Below, piece by piece: positions 14,836 through 36,269 of a DNA stretch of 37,002 bases; within the stretch, counting starts at the first letter, position 1, and each line of letters starts with the position of its first letter. Source of the DNA: a virus; IMG/VR virus record IMGVR_UViG_3300042375_000990, positions 1-37,002 of that record; one strand, given 5' to 3'. A program made the position numbers and the translations under genes. The notes under the pieces are model-generated. The model was given only the letters and a program-made list of their open reading frames with translations, had not been told where the DNA came from and ran no database searches.

Positions 14836-16041
14836 ATGTCAAAACGATACCCTTCAGGGTTCATATCGACATTTTATGACCCGCTAAAAAATCCTGATGC
14901 TCCAACCATTGGGACGGCAGAAGCTGGCGATTCAACTGCATCTGTACCGTTTACCGCACCTTCTAATGTAGGTGGGTCGGCTATTACGGGGTACGGGGTA
15001 CAATCAACCCCCGAGGGGATCAAAGCGTCTGCAGCTTCTTCGCCAATCAGCGTCACGGGACTAACTAACGGTACGCCCTACACATTTGCTGTGTGGGCAA
15101 TTAACTCTTATGGTACAGGTCCTTTTAGTGCGGCGAGTAACAGTGTTACCCCTGCTGTTCCCCCATTCGGTATATTAATGGGTGGTGTTGATAACACCGG
15201 CTCCTACACCAGCGCTATCAGGCGTATAACGTTAGATACATCGGGAACGGTGGCCAATTTTGGTAATATGACTACACCAAGAGAAAAGAATGCTGGAGTC
15301 GCGTCTTCTACAAGAGCCATCACCATGGGTGGCTATGGGTCTGGGTTTTATAGTTCAATGGAATATGTCACCATCGCTACAACTGGTAATGGTACCTTTT
15401 TCGGGAATTTGAGTAGGTTAACAATGCAAATGGGCGGCACGGGGAATGAAACTCGCGGTCTTTCTATCTGCGGATGGGACACAAATGTCGGGGGAATTGC
15501 TACCATTTCATATGTAACTATTGCTACAACGGGAAGTTCAACCTCATTTGGAAGTTGGTACAACGGAGCTACGTATAATAACCAAGGCGCTTGCTCATCT
15601 CCAACCAGAGCACTTTATGGTGGAGGCGTTCAAGGTGGTTTAAGCAAAAACGTTATTGGCTATCTTACGATTGCCACTACGGGTGGAGGTACAGCTTTTG
15701 GTGAATTAACCAGCATTTCGGCAGGTGGATCTGCTTGTTCTAATTCTACCAGAGGTGTTTTTGCACATGGTGGCTACAGTAATATATTAAGTTATGTAAC
15801 TATTGCTACTGAAGGAAACTCAACCTCATTTGGTTCACTCACAAATCAAGTCCAACACGTTGGGGCTTTATCTACAACCACCAGAGGATTTTTTGTTGGA
15901 GGTAACGCTAGTGGAACTGGAGTTAATGTGATACAGTATATAACCTTTGCCTCTACGGGCAATGCTATTGATATTGGTGATTTACCCACTACGCTTTGGG
16001 ACTTAGCCGCCTGTTCTAGTGCTCATGGAGGGCTTCAATAA
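14836..16041 (+). CDS. Putative receptor-binding protein: FN3 domain plus six kelch-like repeats
   Basis: A 401-aa protein. Residues about 19-107 form a fibronectin type III domain (NPDAPTIGTA, NVGGSAITGYGVQSTPEG, ISVTGLTNGTPYTFAVWAIN, GPFSAASNSVTP). From about residue 112 there are six repeats of roughly 45-50 aa, each with a Y-V-T-I-A-T-T-G-N-x-x-x-F-G-x-L strand followed by an R-x-x-x-A-x-x-S-S-x-T-R-G-x-x-x-G-G segment. The pattern suggests a six-bladed propeller, typical of ligand binding. The C-terminus ends CSSAHGGLQ. It is the first of three consecutive paralogs and overlaps the next start as TAATG. FN3 domains in phage virions often mediate weak carbohydrate or surface contact. Confidence 0.75.
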   Translation: MSKRYPSGFISTFYDPLKNPDAPTIGTAEAGDSTASVPFTAPSNVGGSAITGYGVQSTPEGIKASAASSPISVTGLTNGTPYTFAVWAINSYGTGPFSAASNSVTPAVPPFGILMGGVDNTGSYTSAIRRITLDTSGTVANFGNMTTPREKNAGVASSTRAITMGGYGSGFYSSMEYVTIATTGNGTFFGNLSRLTMQMGGTGNETRGLSICGWDTNVGGIATISYVTIATTGSSTSFGSWYNGATYNNQGACSSPTRALYGGGVQGGLSKNVIGYLTIATTGGGTAFGELTSISAGGSACSNSTRGVFAHGGYSNILSYVTIATEGNSTSFGSLTNQVQHVGALSTTTRGFFVGGNASGTGVNVIQYITFASTGNAIDIGDLPTTLWDLAACSSAHGGLQ

Positions 16042-17006
16042 TGCCAAGTTTTTCAGGTGTATGGTCCCTACCTGCTGTGATGCAGGCTGTTGGGGCTGGT
16101 AATTGGACAAGCTTTCTTCAAGGCAACATCGGGTTGTTTGGTGGAGGGGGGACGCAAGGCGGCCCGATAGTCAACACTATCCAATACATTACTATTACTA
16201 CCACGGGTAACACAACAGACTTTGGTGATTTATCAGCACTAACATACTATTTTGGTGCTTGTGCCTCTTCAACAAGGGGTATATTTGGTGGGGGAATTGC
16301 TAACGGCGCATCACGTACAAATACTATTAACTACGTAACCATTGCATCAACTGGTAACTCTACTGACTTTGGTGATTTAACATTTGGCGTACAAAGCCCA
16401 GCATCATGTTCATCTTCTACACGCGGGTTATTTTTTGGCGGGTATACAGACACTGGTAGTACTAATATAAATGTAATAAATTACATAACAATAGCTACAA
16501 CAGGAAATGCGCTTGATTTTGGTGACATGTCAGCAACGTTGCGACAGGCATGTGGTTGCTCATCCACAACCAGGGGTGTAGTTGCTGGTGGAGAAGGTAG
16601 TGGCGGGGAAATTAATGTTATTGAGTATGTAACTATAGCAACTACAGGTAATACTACAGACTTTGGGGATCTGCTTTCAGTTAAAAGAGGAGTTTCAGGC
16701 TGCTCATCATCAACAAGAGGTATTTTTAGCGGAGGAAGTAGTGCAACTAATGTAATCCAATACATCACTATTGCTACCACGGGTAACGCAATAGACTTTG
16801 GTGATCTACTTAGCGCTATCCACGATGCTGGTTCTTGCTCAAGTAGCACCAGAGGGGTGATAGGCGGTGGTGATAATGACGCAATTTACATTAATGTAAT
16901 CCAATACGTAACCATTGCATCAACTGGTGACTCTACTGACTTTGGTGATTTAGCGGCAGGGACTTCATACTTAGCAGCTTGTTCTAACTCTCACGGGGGT
17001 CTATAA
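16041..17006 (+). CDS. Putative receptor-binding protein: six kelch-like repeats (second paralog)
   Basis: A 321-aa protein. A short N-terminal segment (SGVWSLPAVMQAVGAGNW) resembles a module found at the start of other phage fibre proteins. It is followed by six repeats containing T-I-x-T-T-G-N-x-x-DFGDL and S-S-S-T-R-G-I/V-F-x-G-G, then CSNSHGGL at the C-terminus. These are the most regular repeats of the three paralogs. It lacks the FN3 domain of its upstream neighbour. The start is coupled to the previous stop through TAATG. The function is inferred as host or glycan binding. Confidence 0.75.
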   Translation: MPSFSGVWSLPAVMQAVGAGNWTSFLQGNIGLFGGGGTQGGPIVNTIQYITITTTGNTTDFGDLSALTYYFGACASSTRGIFGGGIANGASRTNTINYVTIASTGNSTDFGDLTFGVQSPASCSSSTRGLFFGGYTDTGSTNINVINYITIATTGNALDFGDMSATLRQACGCSSTTRGVVAGGEGSGGEINVIEYVTIATTGNTTDFGDLLSVKRGVSGCSSSTRGIFSGGSSATNVIQYITIATTGNAIDFGDLLSAIHDAGSCSSSTRGVIGGGDNDAIYINVIQYVTIASTGDSTDFGDLAAGTSYLAACSNSHGGL

Positions 17007-17008
17007 AA

Positions 17009-18061
17009 ATGGGTATTAAAGATTGGAACGCAGGTATTATTAGACCTGTAGCTGTTGCTCCTACTGGTGCATTTAACGACAGTGTAGCCTCTGGAATCTG
17101 GACAATACAACAGGTAGCGTATTGGAGAAATCAAAGTTTGTGGCCTATTGCTAATAATTTAAGCCCCATAGCTTATTGGGCAGGAGGCTCTGTAAGCGGC
17201 CCTGGCAGGGTAAACGTAATTCAGTATGTAAAAATTACGTCCCTTGGAAACACCTCAGACTGGGGTGATTTGATTACCGCGCGCTCAGAGGTAGCGGGTT
17301 GTGCTTCTTCTACCAGAGGTATAATTGCCGGAGGCTATAACGTCGGAGGAAATAGGCAAAGTTCTATTGAATTCATTACTATTAGTACCTCTGGTTCTTC
17401 ATCCTCCTTTGGTGATTTAATAAGTGGGAGTAATGAGCATGCAGGGCTGTCTAATAGTACCAGGGGTGTTTTTGGGGGAGGGCAGAATGAAGCTGATAAT
17501 ACAACCAATGTTATCTCGTATATAACTATTGCGTCCGAAGGGGGAGCCACAGACTTTGGAGATTTGAGTTCTAAAAGGTACGGGCAATTCGGGTGTGCAT
17601 CTACCACCCGTGGTCTTTTCGCCGGTGGGGCTACTCAAGTTGGGGGTGATCAGTATGGTGTAACCGCTATTCAATATATAACCATTGCGACCACGGGTAA
17701 CGCTCAAACTTTTGGTGACCTAACTGTTCGCCGTGCGCGCGGGGATGCCGTATCATCTTCTACTCGAGGTGTTTTTCTGGGTGGGAATAGCGGAGATAGT
17801 CCCTTCACTGAAAATAGTGTCATCGATTATGTAACGATTGCAACTACGGGCAACGCTACTAGCTTTGGTAGTCTGGCTGAAAACTCCAGAAAGGGCGCAG
17901 CGTCTTGTTCTGAAATTAGAGGTCTCGTTTCTGTCTCAAATTCTTCTAATGTTATAAACTACATAACGATTGCTACAACAGGAAATGGTTTAGATTTTGG
18001 TGATTTATTAAACTCACCAGAGGAACCAGCGGGATTCTCTAACGCTCATGGTGGCCTATAA
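17009..18061 (+). CDS. Putative receptor-binding protein: six kelch-like repeats (third paralog)
   Basis: A 350-aa protein. It has a different N-terminal segment of about 60 aa (MGIKDWNAGIIRPVAVAPTG, then ASGIWTIQQVAYW), whose G-x-W-T/S-x-x-x-V pattern parallels the second paralog. Six repeats follow (first YVKITSLGNTSDWGDL, last YITIATTGNGLDFGDL), and the end is FSNAHGGL. The first repeats are more diverged than those of its neighbours, as expected for a variable adhesin. It starts two bases after the previous stop. Immediately downstream a sigma70-type promoter opens a different transcription unit. Confidence 0.75.
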   Translation: MGIKDWNAGIIRPVAVAPTGAFNDSVASGIWTIQQVAYWRNQSLWPIANNLSPIAYWAGGSVSGPGRVNVIQYVKITSLGNTSDWGDLITARSEVAGCASSTRGIIAGGYNVGGNRQSSIEFITISTSGSSSSFGDLISGSNEHAGLSNSTRGVFGGGQNEADNTTNVISYITIASEGGATDFGDLSSKRYGQFGCASTTRGLFAGGATQVGGDQYGVTAIQYITIATTGNAQTFGDLTVRRARGDAVSSSTRGVFLGGNSGDSPFTENSVIDYVTIATTGNATSFGSLAENSRKGAASCSEIRGLVSVSNSSNVINYITIATTGNGLDFGDLLNSPEEPAGFSNAHGGL

Positions 18062-18071
18062 TTTAAAACTA

Positions 18072-18100
18072 TTGACTTTTCTTGCTACATCATGTATAAT
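18072..18100 (+). promoter_or_regulatory. Host sigma70-type promoter before the first A-B cassette
   Basis: TTGACT (18072-18077), a 17-bp spacer, then a perfect TATAAT (18095-18100). Five of six -35 bases match the consensus. The start codon at 18134 and its AGGA ribosome site (18122-18125) follow with a leader of roughly 27 nt. No late box is present. This predicts transcription by host RNA polymerase early in infection. Confidence 0.8.
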
Positions 18101-18133: not shown

Positions 18134-18952
18134 ATGAATGAATTGACTATAAAAAACATCTCGACCTCACTTACAACTGTCAAGCCTGAGTACAGCGTCA
18201 TGCTAAACAACATTGACGTAAAATTACCTGCAGTTATGAAAACAGCGACCAACTTTTATAAAGGTCACTCGCAGTTTATGAATGTAACTTTGGATGTGAC
18301 AACATTAACCCCCTTACGTTCTATATACCAGTCATTGGCTGAGATTGAGCAAACTAGAGCGGCCTTGCAAGATAACCACTTTAAATTAAAAAAAGCAGAA
18401 ATTGAATGCCGCCGCAAAGAGTCTATGTTAGCCGAGACAACAGATCCTTTTGATCGTGAGTTATTAGAGTTAGAAATTATTGAAGCTAGAGCTGGTGCCT
18501 TTAGTAACCAAAATTATATGGAAGGTGCAGTTCGCAAACTTAATTTCTTTATTAACCAATATGATAATATCTTGGCAAAGATTGGCAAGACCGAAATCAC
18601 CGAAGAAGACTACGAACTGGAAGAGAAGCGTTACCATGTGATGACATGCATGAAGCAGGGATTAAATGCCGCGCGAGCTCGAGGCGGAGTAATTGATGAG
18701 GGCAATATGATTTACTTGTTTGACTTGGGCATTAATGCTGCACAAGCACAAGCCGAAGTCTATGCCTATCTTACAATGGAAAATGAAATGATATCCAAAG
18801 GAATTCCGCCAACGCATGAGATGACGGTGAAATGGTTAGAAGCCTGTGCCGATAAGTTTGAAAACTGTGCTGAAAAGTTTGCTGCAAGCCGCGGCTTCGC
18901 TGTTCTAGATCGCCAGTCATTGACCAATACTCCCCAGCTAGAGAACAAATAA
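18134..18952 (+). CDS. Unrecognised coiled-coil protein 'A1', partner of a glycosyltransferase
   Basis: A 272-aa protein that I do not recognise. It is cytoplasmic in appearance, with no signal peptide or membrane segment. The N-terminal part has KPEYSVMLNNIDVKLPAV and HSQFMNVTLDVT. The middle (about 75-150) is charged and helical, fitting coiled coil. The C-terminal half (about 155-250) contains ITEEDYE, HVMTCMKQGLNAARARGG, IDEGNMIYLFDLGINAAQAQ and PTHEMTVKWLEACADK. It is a paralog of the gene at 19734; the C-terminal half is the most conserved part. Its stop overlaps the glycosyltransferase start (TAATG), and the A-B order is repeated downstream, so A and B probably act together. DNA in its conserved region is GC-richer than the second copy (27/60 versus 18/60 GC over comparable 60-base stretches). 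Confidence 0.75.
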   Translation: MNELTIKNISTSLTTVKPEYSVMLNNIDVKLPAVMKTATNFYKGHSQFMNVTLDVTTLTPLRSIYQSLAEIEQTRAALQDNHFKLKKAEIECRRKESMLAETTDPFDRELLELEIIEARAGAFSNQNYMEGAVRKLNFFINQYDNILAKIGKTEITEEDYELEEKRYHVMTCMKQGLNAARARGGVIDEGNMIYLFDLGINAAQAQAEVYAYLTMENEMISKGIPPTHEMTVKWLEACADKFENCAEKFAASRGFAVLDRQSLTNTPQLENK

Positions 18953-19659
18953 TGCATTTAGTAATTGGTACCCCAATGTATGGGGGTATGTGTTGTAGTG
19001 AGTACACACAGTCCCTGTTACAGTTGCAGAGCGATATGGAGCGTAGTGGTCACAATATGACCTGTATATTTCTTGGGAACGAGTCTTTAATTCAACGTGG
19101 ACGCAATACAATCGTACACCACTTTCTGAAGACGGACGCAAGCCACCTACTGTTTATTGATGCCGATCAATCGTTTCGACCTCAAGATATTGTCAAGATG
19201 ATTCAGGCCGACAAGCCCCTAATTGCTGGATGTGTTCCAATGAAGAACATTAACTGGCAACGAGTAAGACAAGGTGCTGTTCTGAATCATAAGGAACTGC
19301 ACAAGTTAACTGGCATTTTTAACATCCACGAGTTAGAAGGTCACCAGATGATCCACCCAGATGAACCCTTCCAGGTGGAGTGGGCAGGAACTGGATTTAT
19401 GTTAATTCGTAGAGATGTATTTGAAACGCTGACTCCGCATGTCCGCCAGTATACTAACGGTGGACATTCAATAGAGCTGGGTGAACCTGTTTATGACTTT
19501 TTCCAAGTCGGAATGAGTGGCGATAAGCTTCTTTCTGAAGACTTTTTCTTTTGCCATAACTATCGCGAACGCGGAGGCTCTGTCTGGGCCGCGCCTTGGT
19601 GTGAACTTGGACATTTTGGTTCGTATCATTTCAGTGGACAATATTCACAAATAGCATGA
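18952..19659 (+). CDS. GT-A-type glycosyltransferase 'B1'
   Basis: A 235-aa protein with the layout of small GT-A-fold glycosyltransferases. It opens with MHLVIGTPMYGG, has NESLIQRGRN around residues 43-52, then a metal/nucleotide-sugar binding DAD at residues 70-72 (LLFIDADQSF). GTGFMLIRRDVF lies near residue 146, and LSEDFFFC plus GHFGSYHFSG lie near the C-terminus, as in other phage-encoded members. The donor sugar and acceptor cannot be read from sequence. It is translationally coupled to the preceding A1 gene. A role in decorating virion proteins or altering host surface sugars is inference; the T4 DNA glucosyltransferases have a different (GT-B) fold. Confidence 0.75.
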   Translation: MHLVIGTPMYGGMCCSEYTQSLLQLQSDMERSGHNMTCIFLGNESLIQRGRNTIVHHFLKTDASHLLFIDADQSFRPQDIVKMIQADKPLIAGCVPMKNINWQRVRQGAVLNHKELHKLTGIFNIHELEGHQMIHPDEPFQVEWAGTGFMLIRRDVFETLTPHVRQYTNGGHSIELGEPVYDFFQVGMSGDKLLSEDFFFCHNYRERGGSVWAAPWCELGHFGSYHFSGQYSQIA

Positions 19660-19687
19660 CTCAGCACACAAACCAGTGGTTTAAATT

Positions 19688-19717
19688 TTGTTTTTAATTT
19701 ATAATATTCTATATAAT
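19688..19717 (+). promoter_or_regulatory. Sigma70-like promoter before the second A-B cassette
   Basis: TTGTTT (19688-19693), an 18-bp spacer and TATAAT (19712-19717), in a very AT-rich 74-bp gap. A second TATAAT is at 19700-19705. An AAGG ribosome site (19724-19727) and the ATG at 19734 follow. The -35 match is weaker than at the first cassette, but the arrangement is the same. Confidence 0.55.
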
Positions 19718-19733
19718 TTTTATAAGGTAATCT

Positions 19734-20570
19734 ATGTCAAATGATTTAATTATTGGTAATATTACAACCGCATTGGCTGTAAATCAAAAGCCTGAATATT
19801 CGGTAATGCTTAAGAATATTGATCAAAAACTACCAGCTGTTGTTCGAGATACTTCTAACTTTCACAAATCTCATTCTCAATTCATGCAGGTTACATTAGA
19901 TGTAACCGCAATTACTCCAATTCGTTCTATTAAGCATACTCTGGCTGAAATTGATCGTACCCGATCTGCCTTACAGGAGGCTTATATCAGTATTCGTAAG
20001 AAGCAGGTGGATTTAAAGCGCAAGCAAAAAGAACTTGAAGAAGCTCTCGATCCTCTAGACCGAGAGTATATTGAAATTGAAATTTTAGAGATGAACGGTC
20101 AGCTTGAGGGTACTCAAAATCACATTAATGGTGCGCTTAGGAAGATGAACTTCCTAGTTAACCAACATGAACAATTACTTCAAGTAATCGGTAGGACCGA
20201 GATTACAGAAGAAGATTATGAGAAAGAAGAAGCTCGTTACCATATTATGACCTGTATGAAGCAAGCACTTAATGCAGCGCGTTCACGTAATGGAATGATT
20301 GATGAAGGTAATCTTATTTATTTGTTTGATCTCGGTATTAATGCAGCCCAGGCGCAAGCTGAAATGTTTGCCTATCTTAATATGGAAAATCAACTAATAT
20401 CAAATGGTAATGCTCCAACCCATGAAATGACTATGAAGTGGTTAGAGGCATGCGCAGATAAGTGGCAAGGTGATCCAGAGAAATTTGCGCAGCGTCGAGG
20501 ATTTAGTATTTTTGATAAGTCTAGTTTAACTAACACCCTTACTTATAATAAGCCAGAAGAGGCAGTCTAA
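19734..20570 (+). CDS. Unrecognised coiled-coil protein 'A2', paralog of A1
   Basis: A 278-aa protein. It aligns along its length with the gene at 18134 with few gaps. Identical blocks include KPEYSVML, HSQFM-x-VTLDVT, TEITEEDYE, IYLFDLGINAAQAQAE and KWLEACADK. The central coiled-coil part (about 80-150) is the least similar. No catalytic motif is recognised. The conserved C-terminal half with fixed Cys, His and Trp positions could be a binding surface for its glycosyltransferase partner or a small unknown domain. Its stop overlaps the start of B2 exactly as in the first cassette. Third codon positions are much AT-richer than in A1, matching the rest of the phage. Confidence 0.75.
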   Translation: MSNDLIIGNITTALAVNQKPEYSVMLKNIDQKLPAVVRDTSNFHKSHSQFMQVTLDVTAITPIRSIKHTLAEIDRTRSALQEAYISIRKKQVDLKRKQKELEEALDPLDREYIEIEILEMNGQLEGTQNHINGALRKMNFLVNQHEQLLQVIGRTEITEEDYEKEEARYHIMTCMKQALNAARSRNGMIDEGNLIYLFDLGINAAQAQAEMFAYLNMENQLISNGNAPTHEMTMKWLEACADKWQGDPEKFAQRRGFSIFDKSSLTNTLTYNKPEEAV

Positions 20571-21304
20571 TGCATTTAGTAATTGGTACCCCATGTTACG
20601 GGGGCATGATGTGTACAGAATATACACAATCTCTTCTTGAATTAAAAGAGGCATGTCTTCAATATAATATTAAATTGACTTGTATCTTTTTAGGTAATGA
20701 ATCCCTTATTCAACGAGGTCGAAATACTATTGCACATCACTTTATGAGTATGCCAGATGCTACACATCTGATGTTTATTGATGCAGATCAAAAGTTTGTA
20801 TCTAATGATATTGCTTTAATGATTAAGGCTGATAAAGGTATTATTGGTGGTCCAGTTCCAATGAAGGGAATTAATTGGGATAAAGTTCGACAAGGTGCTC
20901 TTCTTAATCACCCTAATTTATCTTCTCTCACAGGCATCTTTAACATAAATAAATTAGTAAACCATGAAATGATTGCCCCTAACCTACCGTTTCAAGTTAA
21001 ACATATAGGTACGGGGTTTATGTTAATTCGTAGAGATGTATTTGAAAAAATAATGCCTCATGTTGGTTGGTATACTAACGGTGGTTCGTCTATGAATACA
21101 TCTGATAAAATATATGATTATTTTAAAGTTCAGAATGTAAATAACGAATTACTTTCTGAAGATTATAATTTCTGCCATATGTACCGTGAACACGGTGGAA
21201 CAGTCTGGGCTGCTCCTTGGTGTGTTCTTGGTCACTTTGGCGCCCATCTTTTTTCGGGGCAATATGCCCAACAAGGAGCTTTAAATGGCACATCATTGCA
21301 TTAA
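20570..21304 (+). CDS. GT-A-type glycosyltransferase 'B2', paralog of B1
   Basis: A 244-aa protein. It has the same motif set as B1: IGTPCYGG at the start, IFLGNESLIQRGRN, the DAD at residues 71-73 (LMFIDADQKF), GTGFMLIRRDVF, LSEDYNFC, and WAAPWC-x-LGHFG. Differences lie mostly in the region after DAD (GGPVPMKGINW versus GCVPMKNINW) and around residues 160-185, which in GT-A enzymes usually shape acceptor choice. The C-terminal tail is longer (AQQGALNGTSLH) and overlaps the following gene by 20 bases. As with B1, donor and acceptor are unknown. Confidence 0.75.
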   Translation: MHLVIGTPCYGGMMCTEYTQSLLELKEACLQYNIKLTCIFLGNESLIQRGRNTIAHHFMSMPDATHLMFIDADQKFVSNDIALMIKADKGIIGGPVPMKGINWDKVRQGALLNHPNLSSLTGIFNINKLVNHEMIAPNLPFQVKHIGTGFMLIRRDVFEKIMPHVGWYTNGGSSMNTSDKIYDYFKVQNVNNELLSEDYNFCHMYREHGGTVWAAPWCVLGHFGAHLFSGQYAQQGALNGTSLH

Positions 21305-21629
21305 ATATCGATTAACTGCTGAAGGTACAGTACCTTCTTTCCTATGTCTTCACCCCGAAGGTGTCGGTGGTGTATATGTTGTTTGGGACACCTCAACACC
21401 TGGTCCTCGTGATATGGTCATGATTGGCTTATCGGAAAACGACGATGTAGGTGATGCAGAAATTATTCCTACTAAAGCTGATTTGCTGACATATTTGACT
21501 TCTGTTAGTGCAGATTGGACTCAACAGGATCCTTCACAACCTAGTGACTCACAAGCTACAATTCCTTTTGATCCTTCTGCAGCAGCTGATTGGGTCTGGG
21601 CACGAAAGACAGCGCTTGATGCAAGCTAA
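21285..21629 (+). CDS. Unrecognised 114-aa protein
   Basis: A 114-aa acidic protein starting inside the end of the B2 glycosyltransferase gene. The start is supported by a good AAGGAG at 21273-21278, seven bases before the ATG. Features: CIKYRLTAEGTVPSFLCLHP near the start, a Trp-containing strand GGVYVVWDTSTPGPRDMVMIGL, a Pro/Ser/Gln-rich stretch (about 80-95), and a C-terminal WVWARKTALDAS. No known domain is evident. It is the last gene before a terminator, so it belongs to the transcript of the glycosyltransferase island. Confidence 0.65.
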   Translation: MAHHCIKYRLTAEGTVPSFLCLHPEGVGGVYVVWDTSTPGPRDMVMIGLSENDDVGDAEIIPTKADLLTYLTSVSADWTQQDPSQPSDSQATIPFDPSAAADWVWARKTALDAS

Positions 21630-21663
21630 TATGTAAGTTCAGTCAAAGTTTGAAGAAAAATGA

Positions 21664-21683
21664 AAAGGGCCTAAGGGCCCTTT
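21664..21683 (+). terminator. Intrinsic terminator ending the glycosyltransferase island
   Basis: A perfect 8-bp inverted repeat (AAAGGGCC / GGCCCTTT) with a four-base TAAG loop and a short T run. It lies 35 bases after the last stop of the island and three bases before a TATAAATA late promoter. It separates the island from the neck genes. Confidence 0.75.
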
Positions 21684-21686
21684 CCC

Positions 21687-21694
21687 TATAAATA
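21687..21694 (+). promoter_or_regulatory. T4-type late promoter box TATAAATA
   Basis: Exact late box directly after the hairpin terminator and 22 bp before the ATG at 21717. That gene has GGGG at 21708-21711 as a probable ribosome site. It restarts late transcription into the neck and terminase genes. Confidence 0.75.
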
Positions 21695-28435: not shown

Positions 28436-29011
28436 ATGACAACATTTAACGTAGAACGTTTTAAATCATCACTAACCAACGGTGGAGCTCGTCCCAACCA
28501 GTTTATGGTACAACTGTCGTTCCCGACATATGTAGCCGGACAATCACTGGCTGTAGCAAGAGCCCCGTTCTTAGTTTCTGTAGCTGAGTTACCTGGACAA
28601 ACAGTTAACCCTGCTATTGTACAATACCGTGGTCGCGAAGTAAAATTCGTAGGCGACCGTATTTACGCGCCCTTTACCATTACTGTATTAAATGACGCTG
28701 AAATGTCAATTCGTACAGCTATGGAACAGTGGATGACTGGAATGGAAGATAATGTCGCAAAATTTGGTAGATTACAACCTTCTGAATACCAACGTGATAT
28801 GCAAGTATTTCAGTTGGACAGAAACGGTAATGCATTAAAAGAATATAGTATTGCAAATGCATTCCCAGTTGATCTGTCTCCTGTAGCATTGGACTTCGGT
28901 GCTAACGATCAGATTTCCACTTTTACAGTGACATTCCAATACCAACATTTTACAGTATCTAACAACCCAGGTGGAAGTATTGTAAACTTTGGTGGTATTT
29001 TTAATCGTTAA
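28436..29011 (+). CDS. 19: Tail tube protein gp19
   Basis: A 191-aa protein (T4 gp19 is 163 aa), placed directly after the sheath gene as in all T4-like phages. Pattern: NGGARPNQFMVQLSFPTYVA, FLVSVAELPGQTVNPAIVQY, RGREVKFVGDRIYAPFTITV, then MEQWMTGMEDN and a closing IVNFGGIFNR. gp19 hexamers stack to form the rigid inner tube through which DNA passes. GGAG just upstream, and a 15-base gap after gene 18, suggest joint expression with the sheath. Confidence 0.94.
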   Translation: MTTFNVERFKSSLTNGGARPNQFMVQLSFPTYVAGQSLAVARAPFLVSVAELPGQTVNPAIVQYRGREVKFVGDRIYAPFTITVLNDAEMSIRTAMEQWMTGMEDNVAKFGRLQPSEYQRDMQVFQLDRNGNALKEYSIANAFPVDLSPVALDFGANDQISTFTVTFQYQHFTVSNNPGGSIVNFGGIFNR

Positions 29012-34793: not shown

Positions 34794-35381
34794 ATGTTTA
34801 CAGCAAATCTTTCAACAGTATTAAATGAAGTTAGTAGTATAACAACCTCCCCGGTTACTAACTTCTTAAGACCTAACGCTTTTAGGTTTTTAATTAAAAA
34901 CTTACCAAGTGTAGCATTTACATGTCAGTCAGCTAATTTACCAGGGCTAACTTTAGGGTTTACAACTCAGCCAACGCCTTTTCTAGATATACCTCATGTA
35001 GGTGATAAGAACGTATTTGGTGACTTTACAATTCGGTTTTTAATAACTGAAGATATGTCAAATTATATTGAATTATATGAATGGTTAGTTGCACTTGGCT
35101 TTCCAAACGACTATAATCAATATAGAAATTTTACTGGAGAACGGTTGAATAGGTTTCCTTTTGTTAAAGATGCTCGTGGTGCTCCGATGGCGGTAGCTTA
35201 CTCAGATGCAACTTTAACTATATTGGATAGTAACAACGTACCGAAAACAAATATTAATTTTAAAGATGTTTTTCCTGTCTCAGTAGAAGCTCTTGATTTT
35301 GATATCACCTCTTCCTCGGTTGATTATTTCGTAGGTATCGCTTCTTTTAAATATAAACTATTTGATATTGAAGTTTTATAA
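34794..35381 (+). CDS. 3: Tail completion / tube terminator protein gp3
   Basis: A 195-aa protein (T4 gp3 is 176 aa). T4 gp3 ends the tail tube before gp15 binds. The order of features matches: an N-terminal NAFRFLIKNLPSVAFTCQSA strand pair, LPGLTLGF-type turn, then FGDFTIRFLITEDMSNYIEL followed by YEWLVALGFP. T4 gp3 has an equivalent RFIVDEELKSWIGMYEWML block. The C-terminal DYFVGIASFKYKLFDIEV corresponds to the closing tube-fold strands. Location straight after gene 23 and before uvsY is the marine T4-like arrangement. It is related in fold to tail tube proteins, so a gp19-like label is an alternative. Confidence 0.82.
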   Translation: MFTANLSTVLNEVSSITTSPVTNFLRPNAFRFLIKNLPSVAFTCQSANLPGLTLGFTTQPTPFLDIPHVGDKNVFGDFTIRFLITEDMSNYIELYEWLVALGFPNDYNQYRNFTGERLNRFPFVKDARGAPMAVAYSDATLTILDSNNVPKTNINFKDVFPVSVEALDFDITSSSVDYFVGIASFKYKLFDIEVL

Positions 35382-35402: not shown

Positions 35403-36269
35403 ATGGCAACTAAGCAAGTTCACCTTTCCGTTGATGAGATTCGTAAAAATAAATTCTTTATCGCTACCCCATGCTATGGTGGTCAGCTAAACGAGCCTTA
35501 CTTCCGTTCAGTCATCAAGATGATGACATTCTTTAACGGGCATCAAATCCCTCTCGCCTTTGGTACTATTGCTAACGAGTCTTTAGTGACCCGGGCCCGC
35601 AACGTACTAGTGGCTTATTTTCTAGCATCTGATTATACTCACCTTATGTTTATCGATGCTGATATTGAATTTCAGACTGAAGATATCTTGAAGCTATACG
35701 CTCACAAGAAAGACGTAGTGGTTGGTGCATATCCTAAGAAGGGTGTTGCATGGGATAAGATTAGATCTAATTTAACGGACCCAGCCAACAAAGATAAGAA
35801 CCTATCTGATCGTGATATGGCCTCTTTTGGTTCAGACTACGCTATTAACTTTAAGTTTGTTGATAAAGAGACTAAGACTATTGGCGTTGAAAATGGCTTG
35901 ATCAAACTACATGATGCCGGTACAGGGTTCATGATGATTAGCCGCGAAGCTATTCTTAAGATGATTAAAGCCTATCCTGAGTTTAAATACAATAACGATG
36001 TTAATATCAATAATGCAGATCTGAAAGATCACTTCTACGCATTGTTTGATACCAGTATTGATCCTGTTGATCGTCGTTACCTATCTGAAGACTATACGTT
36101 CTGCCGACGCTGGCAGGAAATTGGCGGAGATGTTTGGCTTGATCCTTCTATCTCTCTCAACCATTACGGTCATTTCTGCTTCCAAGGTAATCCTGAAGCC
36201 ATTATTAGCTTTGGCCCTCAACCAGAACAAAAGAGAGAAGAAGTAATTACCGTCGACCTACCTGATTAA
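35403..36269 (+). CDS. GT-A-type glycosyltransferase-like protein (third family member)
   Basis: A 288-aa protein sharing the motif order of B1 and B2 but clearly diverged. ATPCYGG lies at about residues 21-27, ANESLVTRARN at 57-67, DAD at 85-87 (LMFIDADIEF), GTGFMMISRE near residue 179, LSEDYTFC near 227, and HYGHFCFQG near the C-terminus. About 40 residues are inserted between the DAD and GTGF motifs relative to B1. It lacks an adjacent A-type partner gene. TGGAG at 35391-35395 is the ribosome site. Donor, acceptor and target are unknown. Confidence 0.75.
   Translation: MATKQVHLSVDEIRKNKFFIATPCYGGQLNEPYFRSVIKMMTFFNGHQIPLAFGTIANESLVTRARNVLVAYFLASDYTHLMFIDADIEFQTEDILKLYAHKKDVVVGAYPKKGVAWDKIRSNLTDPANKDKNLSDRDMASFGSDYAINFKFVDKETKTIGVENGLIKLHDAGTGFMMISREAILKMIKAYPEFKYNNDVNINNADLKDHFYALFDTSIDPVDRRYLSEDYTFCRRWQEIGGDVWLDPSISLNHYGHFCFQGNPEAIISFGPQPEQKREEVITVDLPD

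Follow-up and report, generated by a model that had tools for sequence, protein, structure and literature searches.

The window, the whole 37,002-nucleotide stretch of virus DNA analysed here, comes from an uncultured T4-like phage whose gp23 was nearest to that of Pelagibacter phage Mosig (66% identical). In its adhesin region, an island bordered by a 2178-aa phrog_358 protein and by gp13/gp14 holds two consecutive gene pairs, A1-B1 and A2-B2, flanked by repeat-built fibre genes (16041-18061) on one side and gp13/gp14/gp15 on the other. The unit extends past B2 into a small gene, C, and a third B paralog lies elsewhere in the window:

16041-17006, plus strand: FGDL-repeat tail adhesin 1, propeller-like, with an N-terminal GVWSL...W anchor (phrog_19111, E 4e-8)
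17009-18061, plus strand: FGDL-repeat tail adhesin 2, directly upstream of A1 (phrog_26444, E 2e-4)
18072-18100, plus strand: sigma-70-like promoter, TTGACT-17-TATAAT, ahead of A1 (11/12 matches, the best in the region)
18134-18952, plus strand: A1, helical protein of the second lineage, GC3 0.42 (phrog_1409, E 1.3e-9)
18952-19659, plus strand: B1, predicted GT-A glycosyltransferase, DxD (DAD) and SED motifs intact (phrog_1574, E 5.9e-41)
19674-19733, plus strand: A2 leader
19734-20570, plus strand: A2, predicted helical protein with a long hairpin (residues 62-151) and a C-terminal helical domain (phrog_1409, E 1.1e-8)
20570-21304, plus strand: B2, predicted GT-A glycosyltransferase (phrog_1574, E 7e-38)
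21285-21629, plus strand: C, small protein; start overlaps the B2 end; placed by its position behind A or A-B
21662-21694, no strand assigned: hairpin (21662-21685), then late-promoter-like TATAAATA (21687-21694), before the next gene (consensus scans only)
35403-36269, plus strand: B3, third phrog_1574 paralog (E 3.1e-44), without A, a gp19-like gene and uvsY on either side

The open reading frames of the two pairs, all on the plus strand amid late structural genes, were exactly as given in the preliminary description, and in each pair the A stop does overlap the B start, by 1 nt within TAATG. Identity is 61% between A1 and A2 (266 aa, E 3e-129) and 65% between B1 and B2 (234 aa, E 4e-115), similarities far above chance that bear out the designation of both as paralogs. 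Of the adhesins upstream, the one at 16041-17006 carries six FGDL repeats of ~48 aa spaced 45-50 aa apart, and the one at 17009-18061 repeats spaced 44-52 aa apart; with this spacing, kelch-like in the first, both would be propeller-like. Of the adhesin residues, 22-25% are Ser/Thr.

The earlier assignment of B to the GT-A enzymes was supported by its predicted fold. The AlphaFold2 model of B2 (pLDDT 80.2, pTM 0.80) was matched by Foldseek to solved GT-A enzymes at E values from 2.3e-7 to 1e-3, the closest being STIV A197 (2.3e-7) and the collagen hydroxylysine glycosyltransferases LH3 and COLGALT1 (1e-6 to 1e-5); B1, being 65% identical to B2, is expected to fold likewise. With TM-scores of only ~0.5 and 8-14% identity, these matches indicate the fold and not the substrate, and GT-A matches cannot separate protein from glycan acceptors. 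The motifs D71-A-D73 and S196-E197-D198 were invariant across 24 aligned sequences, including B1, B2, and B3, all three of which match the phrog_1574 profile over its full length, even though B3 is only 33% identical to B2. T4 DNA glucosyltransferases differ in having the GT-B fold. Phages Cr30 (Caulobacter), phiM12 (Sinorhizobium), DLP_6 (Stenotrophomonas), and OC (Ochrobactrum) encode the same enzyme family, but there, unlike B1 and B2, it stands solo among replication/recombination genes and without A; the A-linked B clade formed a separate, supported branch of the phrog_1574 tree. Where dS was not saturated, dN/dS was ~0.03-0.08 for A2, B1, and B2, and these genes are under purifying selection.

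Protein A, previously taken as unrecognised, is not an orphan: profile searches place it as a distant relative of T4-GC_353/phrog_1409. The phrog_1409 profile was detected in 8/8 A-bearing contigs tried, and hhalign gave a probability of 96 (E 2e-9) over 131 columns that included non-coil motifs; the marine A of locus L112 gave no direct match. The A2 model (AlphaFold2, pLDDT 77.7, pTM 0.65) had as its best BFVD match the S-ShM2 member E3SJT9 (E 5.5e-3, TM 0.41-0.44). Foldseek against the PDB returned generic coiled coils only, none at E<=0.001, and the A profile matched no sequence of a solved structure. A Pfam search of A, C, and the adhesins gave nothing useful, with no match of A or C above the cut-off and hence no homology there to the chaperones Tfa, gp38, and gp57A; a Tfa-like role for C had position as its whole basis and was rejected. 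Neither A nor C had a tblastn match among named phages, which were reached from A solely via phrog_1409 and BFVD, and A was absent from the closest T4-like phages with names, Mosig, Melnitz, and S-H38. Among bacterial genomes A was found on one contig, of a Pirellulales MAG; it has the layout fibre-A-C and is probably a phage contig. A siphovirus relative sits behind a gene annotated as kelch.

The cyanomyovirus proteins of T4-GC_353/phrog_1409 (PSSM4_034 of P-SSM4, SShM2_038 of S-ShM2) resemble A in being helical and in closing a tail-fibre array at its 3' end, and they followed tail-fibre genes in those cyanophages that were examined. They share with A the motifs TPxR, a coiled coil, EE..Y....KQ, and G.I..GNL, but are only ~22-27% identical to it, over part of the length, and no FGDL repeats were found in their neighbouring fibres, unlike at A loci. 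A transferase is usually lacking; in S-ShM2 the next gene is a 2OG-Fe(II) oxygenase, whose start T4-GC_353 overlaps by 1 nt. The phages S-SM1, Syn9, and S-PM2 lack phrog_1409, so their proteomics is uninformative on relatives of A in virions.

The two pairs had been called duplicated. They are paralogous and adjacent, as tandem duplication within the phage lineage followed by divergence would have it, but A1 and A2 fell in separate, strongly supported clades, each with single-copy relatives 80-93% identical, and so did B1 and B2; GC3 also contrasts, at 0.42 for A1 against 0.24-0.29. The leader of A1 was homologous to that of phages with a single A2-type gene (L011, L029-L031), and the A2 leader, by blastn and side-by-side sequences, to the spacer separating fibre and A in L009/L010, which likewise have a single A; this A2 leader marks the 3' edge of the A1-B1 insert. 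With separate clades and both leaders matching single-copy phages, tandem duplication in place was rejected as very improbable. The trees and junctions instead show the other option raised at the outset, repeated acquisition: A1-B1 and A2-B2 are of two long-separated lineages, each single elsewhere, the window phage having acquired a second, anciently separated cassette. A1-B1 is inserted with ORF precision, an A-type leader on either side, so the pair moves as a cassette, and trees and leaders agree with the earlier view that A and B have been kept together, inherited and moved jointly. The finding hints at an exchange among phages of enzymes for chemically decorating either the phage's own adhesins or the surface of its host.

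A survey of A-B co-occurrence showed the coupling to be one-way. B of the A-linked clade was accompanied by A in 77/77 testable contigs; the one apparent B-C locus without A (L309), in which a truncated B runs into opposite-strand lysis-type genes, is likely a chimeric or degraded contig. The converse did not hold, as 59 of the 148 testable A genes with room for it had no B (one locus, L141, appears twice in that count), so that the constant partners of A are not B, as had been supposed, but the adhesin and gene C. The latter followed A or A-B in 142/161 A-gene entries, most of the remainder being cut by contig ends. An FGDL-repeat adhesin followed by A was scored by script in 47/50 testable loci, and in 50/50 once three ORF-overlap misses were corrected, against 1/23 for fibres that share the anchor and lack the repeats; the noted location beside an adhesin array is therefore not incidental. 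Marine A loci without B often have a sulfotransferase in its place, adjoining A in 22 loci and never found together with B.

Ahead of A1, a stricter form of the sigma-70-like pattern had its sole match in the window (0.14 expected), and the late motif NATAAATA, which precedes 10 other genes of the window at a distance of up to 60 nt, was absent from the A1 and A2 leaders. The hairpin and TATAAATA form the apparent end of an A-B-A-B-C unit. The strong promoter and the leaders lacking NATAAATA fit early expression better than work on the virion, and count against decoration of adhesins.

Temperate phages carry in gtrABC serotype conversion a glycosyltransferase tied to host recognition, in which B has a parallel; A, helical and adhesin-linked, sets the present locus apart. 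Glycosyl- and sulfotransferases also commonly act on surface polysaccharides, and a serious alternative, if less likely than not, is that B and the marine sulfotransferase alter the host surface polysaccharide while the infection runs, keeping rival phages out or preventing re-adsorption on release. A would then be a helper, or else a fibre protein that shares the locus only because the choice of a receptor and its masking have to agree. The A1 promoter and the missing late motif favour this, although the sigma-70-like site is missing at most A loci and a late motif is present at 13. No flippase or membrane-bound partner such as the bactoprenol glycosyltransferase was among the PHROG/Pfam matches of the window proteins scanned, the record being a fragment, and a host-directed system would not be expected to have A linked to a single type of adhesin repeat. 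The pelagimyophage host recognition cluster is likewise a T4-like island before gp14 with tail fibres and glycosyltransferases, which its authors read as host O-chain modifiers (PMC7029224). It lies between VrlC and gp14, the window island between the phrog_358 protein and gp13/gp14, and the available part of that paper names no A-B unit, A-adhesin linkage, or cassette transfer.

That A and B do not work together, A serving adhesin assembly and B being cargo between A and C for an unrelated role, is improbable. DNA or nucleotide glycosylation comes into question because B relatives lie amid replication and recombination genes in several T4-like phages; B-family enzymes also lack an accompanying A in 65 named phages and in 80 contigs (A or C in 0/80 of the latter), besides the A loci without B and some with the order A-C-B (L100). 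Against this, every B of the A-linked clade keeps its A, and the pair was transferred as a single ORF-precise unit. In addition, among 89 A genes followed by B in the first two scans the translational overlap was kept in 80 (1 nt in 66, 4 nt in 14), and distances correlated better for A-B (0.80) than for A-C (0.58).

The reading we prefer, tentatively and with somewhat more doubt than confidence, is that A is an accessory protein dedicated to FGDL-repeat tail adhesins, most likely as assembly chaperone, connector, or adaptor. B would be an optional cytosolic glycosyltransferase, translated right behind A and using A to reach its target; freshly synthesised adhesin is the most likely one and would then be decorated with sugar. 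In marine relatives the sulfotransferase beside A may be its counterpart. The window phage combines a resident A2-B2 with an A1-B1 cassette from another phage lineage, and two cassettes could confer two specificities. A wider and more doubtful extension is that aquatic phages of several morphotypes share a mobile module for finishing adhesins, in which A, as a conserved helical adaptor bound to a propeller-like tail adhesin, recruits interchangeable small-group transferases (glycosyl, sulfo, and perhaps a hydroxylating oxygenase), and ORF-precise cassette swaps change adhesin chemistry as well as sequence.

The asymmetric linkage, with the transferase needing A and A going with the repeat adhesin, yields a specific adaptor hypothesis, and offers a handle on the function of T4-GC_353, still annotated as hypothetical in >100 cyanophage records. 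Tail adhesins decide the host of a phage, and if locus-resident, swappable transferases decorate them, then sequence-based prediction of host range misses a layer.

The 37,002-base virus record carries a T4-like structural module, in which gp25, gp6 and baseplate wedge genes are followed by a 2178-aa phrog_358 protein, tail adhesins, two consecutive A-B gene pairs, and then gp13-gp23 and uvsY. The major capsid protein was nearest to that of Pelagibacter phage Mosig (66%), and was also close to those of Methylophilales and Synechococcus phages. Two phrog_45 (tail-tube-like) genes were present, after gp18 (28436-29011) and after gp23 (34794-35381). The positions of the four paired genes in the preliminary description were exactly right. 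The A/B junctions are TAATG overlaps, and identity was 61% between A1 and A2 and 65% between B1 and B2. The genes concerned are:

16041-17006, tail adhesin with six FGDL repeats
17009-18061, tail adhesin with six FGDL repeats
18134-18952 (+), A1, helical protein
18952-19659 (+), B1, predicted glycosyltransferase
19734-20570 (+), A2, paralog of A1
20570-21304 (+), B2, paralog of B1
21285-21629, C, small gene whose start overlaps the end of B2
35403-36269, third B paralog (phrog_1574), beside uvsY and without A

The third paralog was only 33% identical to B2, and its nearest relative was an enzyme of Sinorhizobium phage phiM12 (39%).

The pairs had been described as a duplicated cassette, and two paralogous pairs are indeed present, but duplication in place was rejected. 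A1-B1 was nearest to loci L091-L097 of other contigs or phages (80-92% identity) and A2-B2 to L009-L011 (84-93%), all with a single pair, and in the A and B trees the copies fell in different clades, both with strong support. DNA similarity of A1-B1 to L091/L092 spans 18135 to 19659, beginning where A1 starts and ending at the B1 stop codon. From 19674 onward, the spacer separating B1 and A2 matches the one that lies between fibre and A in L009/L010, and the A1 leader resembles those of single A2-type phages (L011, L029). GC3 was 0.42 for A1-B1 versus 0.24-0.29 for A2-B2. Because of these clades, similarity edges, leader and spacer matches and GC3 values, the arrangement is read here as a second cassette inserted behind an A-type leader. 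Where dS was unsaturated (A2, B1, B2), dN/dS was about 0.03-0.08, so these genes look functional; for A1, dN was low (0.05) and dS saturated.

B gave only sub-threshold matches to Pfam, and was assigned to phrog_1574 by PHROGs search. The AlphaFold2 model of B2 (pLDDT 80, pTM 0.80) matched STIV A197 (E 2.3e-7), LH3 and COLGALT1, so the predicted fold is GT-A; DAD (71-73) and SED (196-198) were invariant among 24 sequences. In four T4-like phages (L004, L005, L006 and L008: Cr30, DLP_6, phiM12 and OC), solo B-family genes, lacking A, have recombination genes on one side and the sliding clamp on the other, and from this context a DNA or nucleotide role is possible for those enzymes.

Protein A has no relative in PDB, by sequence or by fold. 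The A2 model (pLDDT 78) consisted only of helices; residues 62-151 form a long hairpin, and the helical part at the C-terminus is conserved. The best BFVD match of A was S-ShM2 protein E3SJT9, taken to be SShM2_038 since both are of 253 aa; SShM2_038 is the S-ShM2 member of phrog_1409, with the record name T4-GC_353. A matched phrog_1409 at E about 1e-9, as did all eight A-bearing contigs tried, and hhalign aligned it with T4-GC_353 over 131 columns (probability 96, E 2e-9). This wider family was present in 125 named records, and in the cyanophages examined its gene either closes the fibre array or lies close to the array's end. An unannotated siphovirus relative (L196 8314-8962, MW202864.1) lies directly 3' of a gene annotated as kelch. 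A fibre-A-C layout was also seen in a Pirellulales MAG contig (L207, JAKUOW010000009.1), which is probably of phage origin and was binned together with the bacterium.

Each scan for co-occurrence used a single query and kept the best 80 loci, and so gives samples, not censuses. The A2 and A1 queries together gave 158 distinct loci, with B following 89 A genes, including both copies in the window (overlap of 1 nt in 66, 4 nt in 14). At 59 loci A lacked B despite room; the script counted 60 entries, having entered one locus twice (L141 2153-3010, otherwise typical, where A is in two ORFs through either a frameshift or an assembly error), and a further 12 entries ending at contig edges were set apart. 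With B of the A-linked branch as query, A was found in 77 of the best 80 loci, the other three being cut at the B start, whereas none of the best 80 loci for the solo B family held A or C. C stands downstream of A as a constant partner, and 53 of the 60 loci from the C query had both A and B. The order was A-C-B in L100, read directly, and the same 357-nt A-B gap occurred in five loci (L100-L104). Because loci with A and no B exist, and reverse-scan B loci carry A, dependence is one-way in these samples: B of this branch needs A or its locus, and A does not need B.

Other enzymes occupy the slot. A sulfotransferase abuts A upstream in 22 marine loci without B (including L111 2171-2971 and L121 804-1598), Pfam Sulfotransfer_3 being matched (E about 1e-11) in both of the two that were tested, and no surveyed locus had both sulfotransferase and B. 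In S-ShM2, the A relative and a 2OG-Fe(II) oxygenase gene share 1 nt, at the stop of the former and the start of the latter. The labels glycosyltransferase, sulfotransferase and none require at least eight changes on the A tree, so slot enzymes have been gained or lost several times.

Upstream of A is a tail adhesin of ~48-residue repeats ending in FGDL, whose sequence looks like that of a six-bladed propeller. With the N-terminal anchor from one of these adhesins as query, and counting loci with room downstream, A followed 47 of 50 repeat-bearing adhesins by script, and 50 of 50 once three A genes overlapping the adhesin end beyond the cut-off were restored, versus one of 23 same-anchor adhesins without repeats. 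The Fisher p of 2e-14 should not be taken at face value, because the loci are interrelated and the query itself derives from a phage that carries A. The FGDL motif was absent from the cyanophage fibres beside T4-GC_353, so the link applies to the A family proper.

The A1 leader contains TTGACT-17-TATAAT, the top sigma-70-like site of the region scanned and, across the whole window, the sole match to a stricter pattern, for which 0.14 matches would be expected. The T4 late promoter-like NATAAATA lies within 60 nt upstream of ten other window genes, and was not found within that distance of A1 or A2. Together these hint that transcription of A-B-A-B-C is early or host-type, but the pattern is not general among the A genes scanned, a sigma-70-like score of at least 10 occurring in only 9 of 150 and the late motif in 13. 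Late promoter-like TATAAATA motifs (4242, 21687, 26673, 32193, 33324 and 34770) show regular placement, preceding structural genes by about 20-60 nt, although their total is near chance.

Fibre islands with glycosyltransferases are already known; in the open literature searched, outside which most subscription journals lie, no report was found of A-adhesin linkage, glycosyltransferase/sulfotransferase alternation or ORF-precise cassette transfer. A change to the host surface is a serious but somewhat less probable reading, favoured by the A1 promoter and by the interpretation given for similar phages in PMC7029224. Decoration of the adhesin is favoured by the tie of A to one adhesin repeat type, by the lack of membrane glycosyltransferase or flippase genes among the proteins scanned, and by the swap of B with a sulfotransferase, and is tentatively ranked higher: A may be an assembly or adaptor protein dedicated to the adhesin, and B an optional transferase that would work through A, probably on the adhesin itself.
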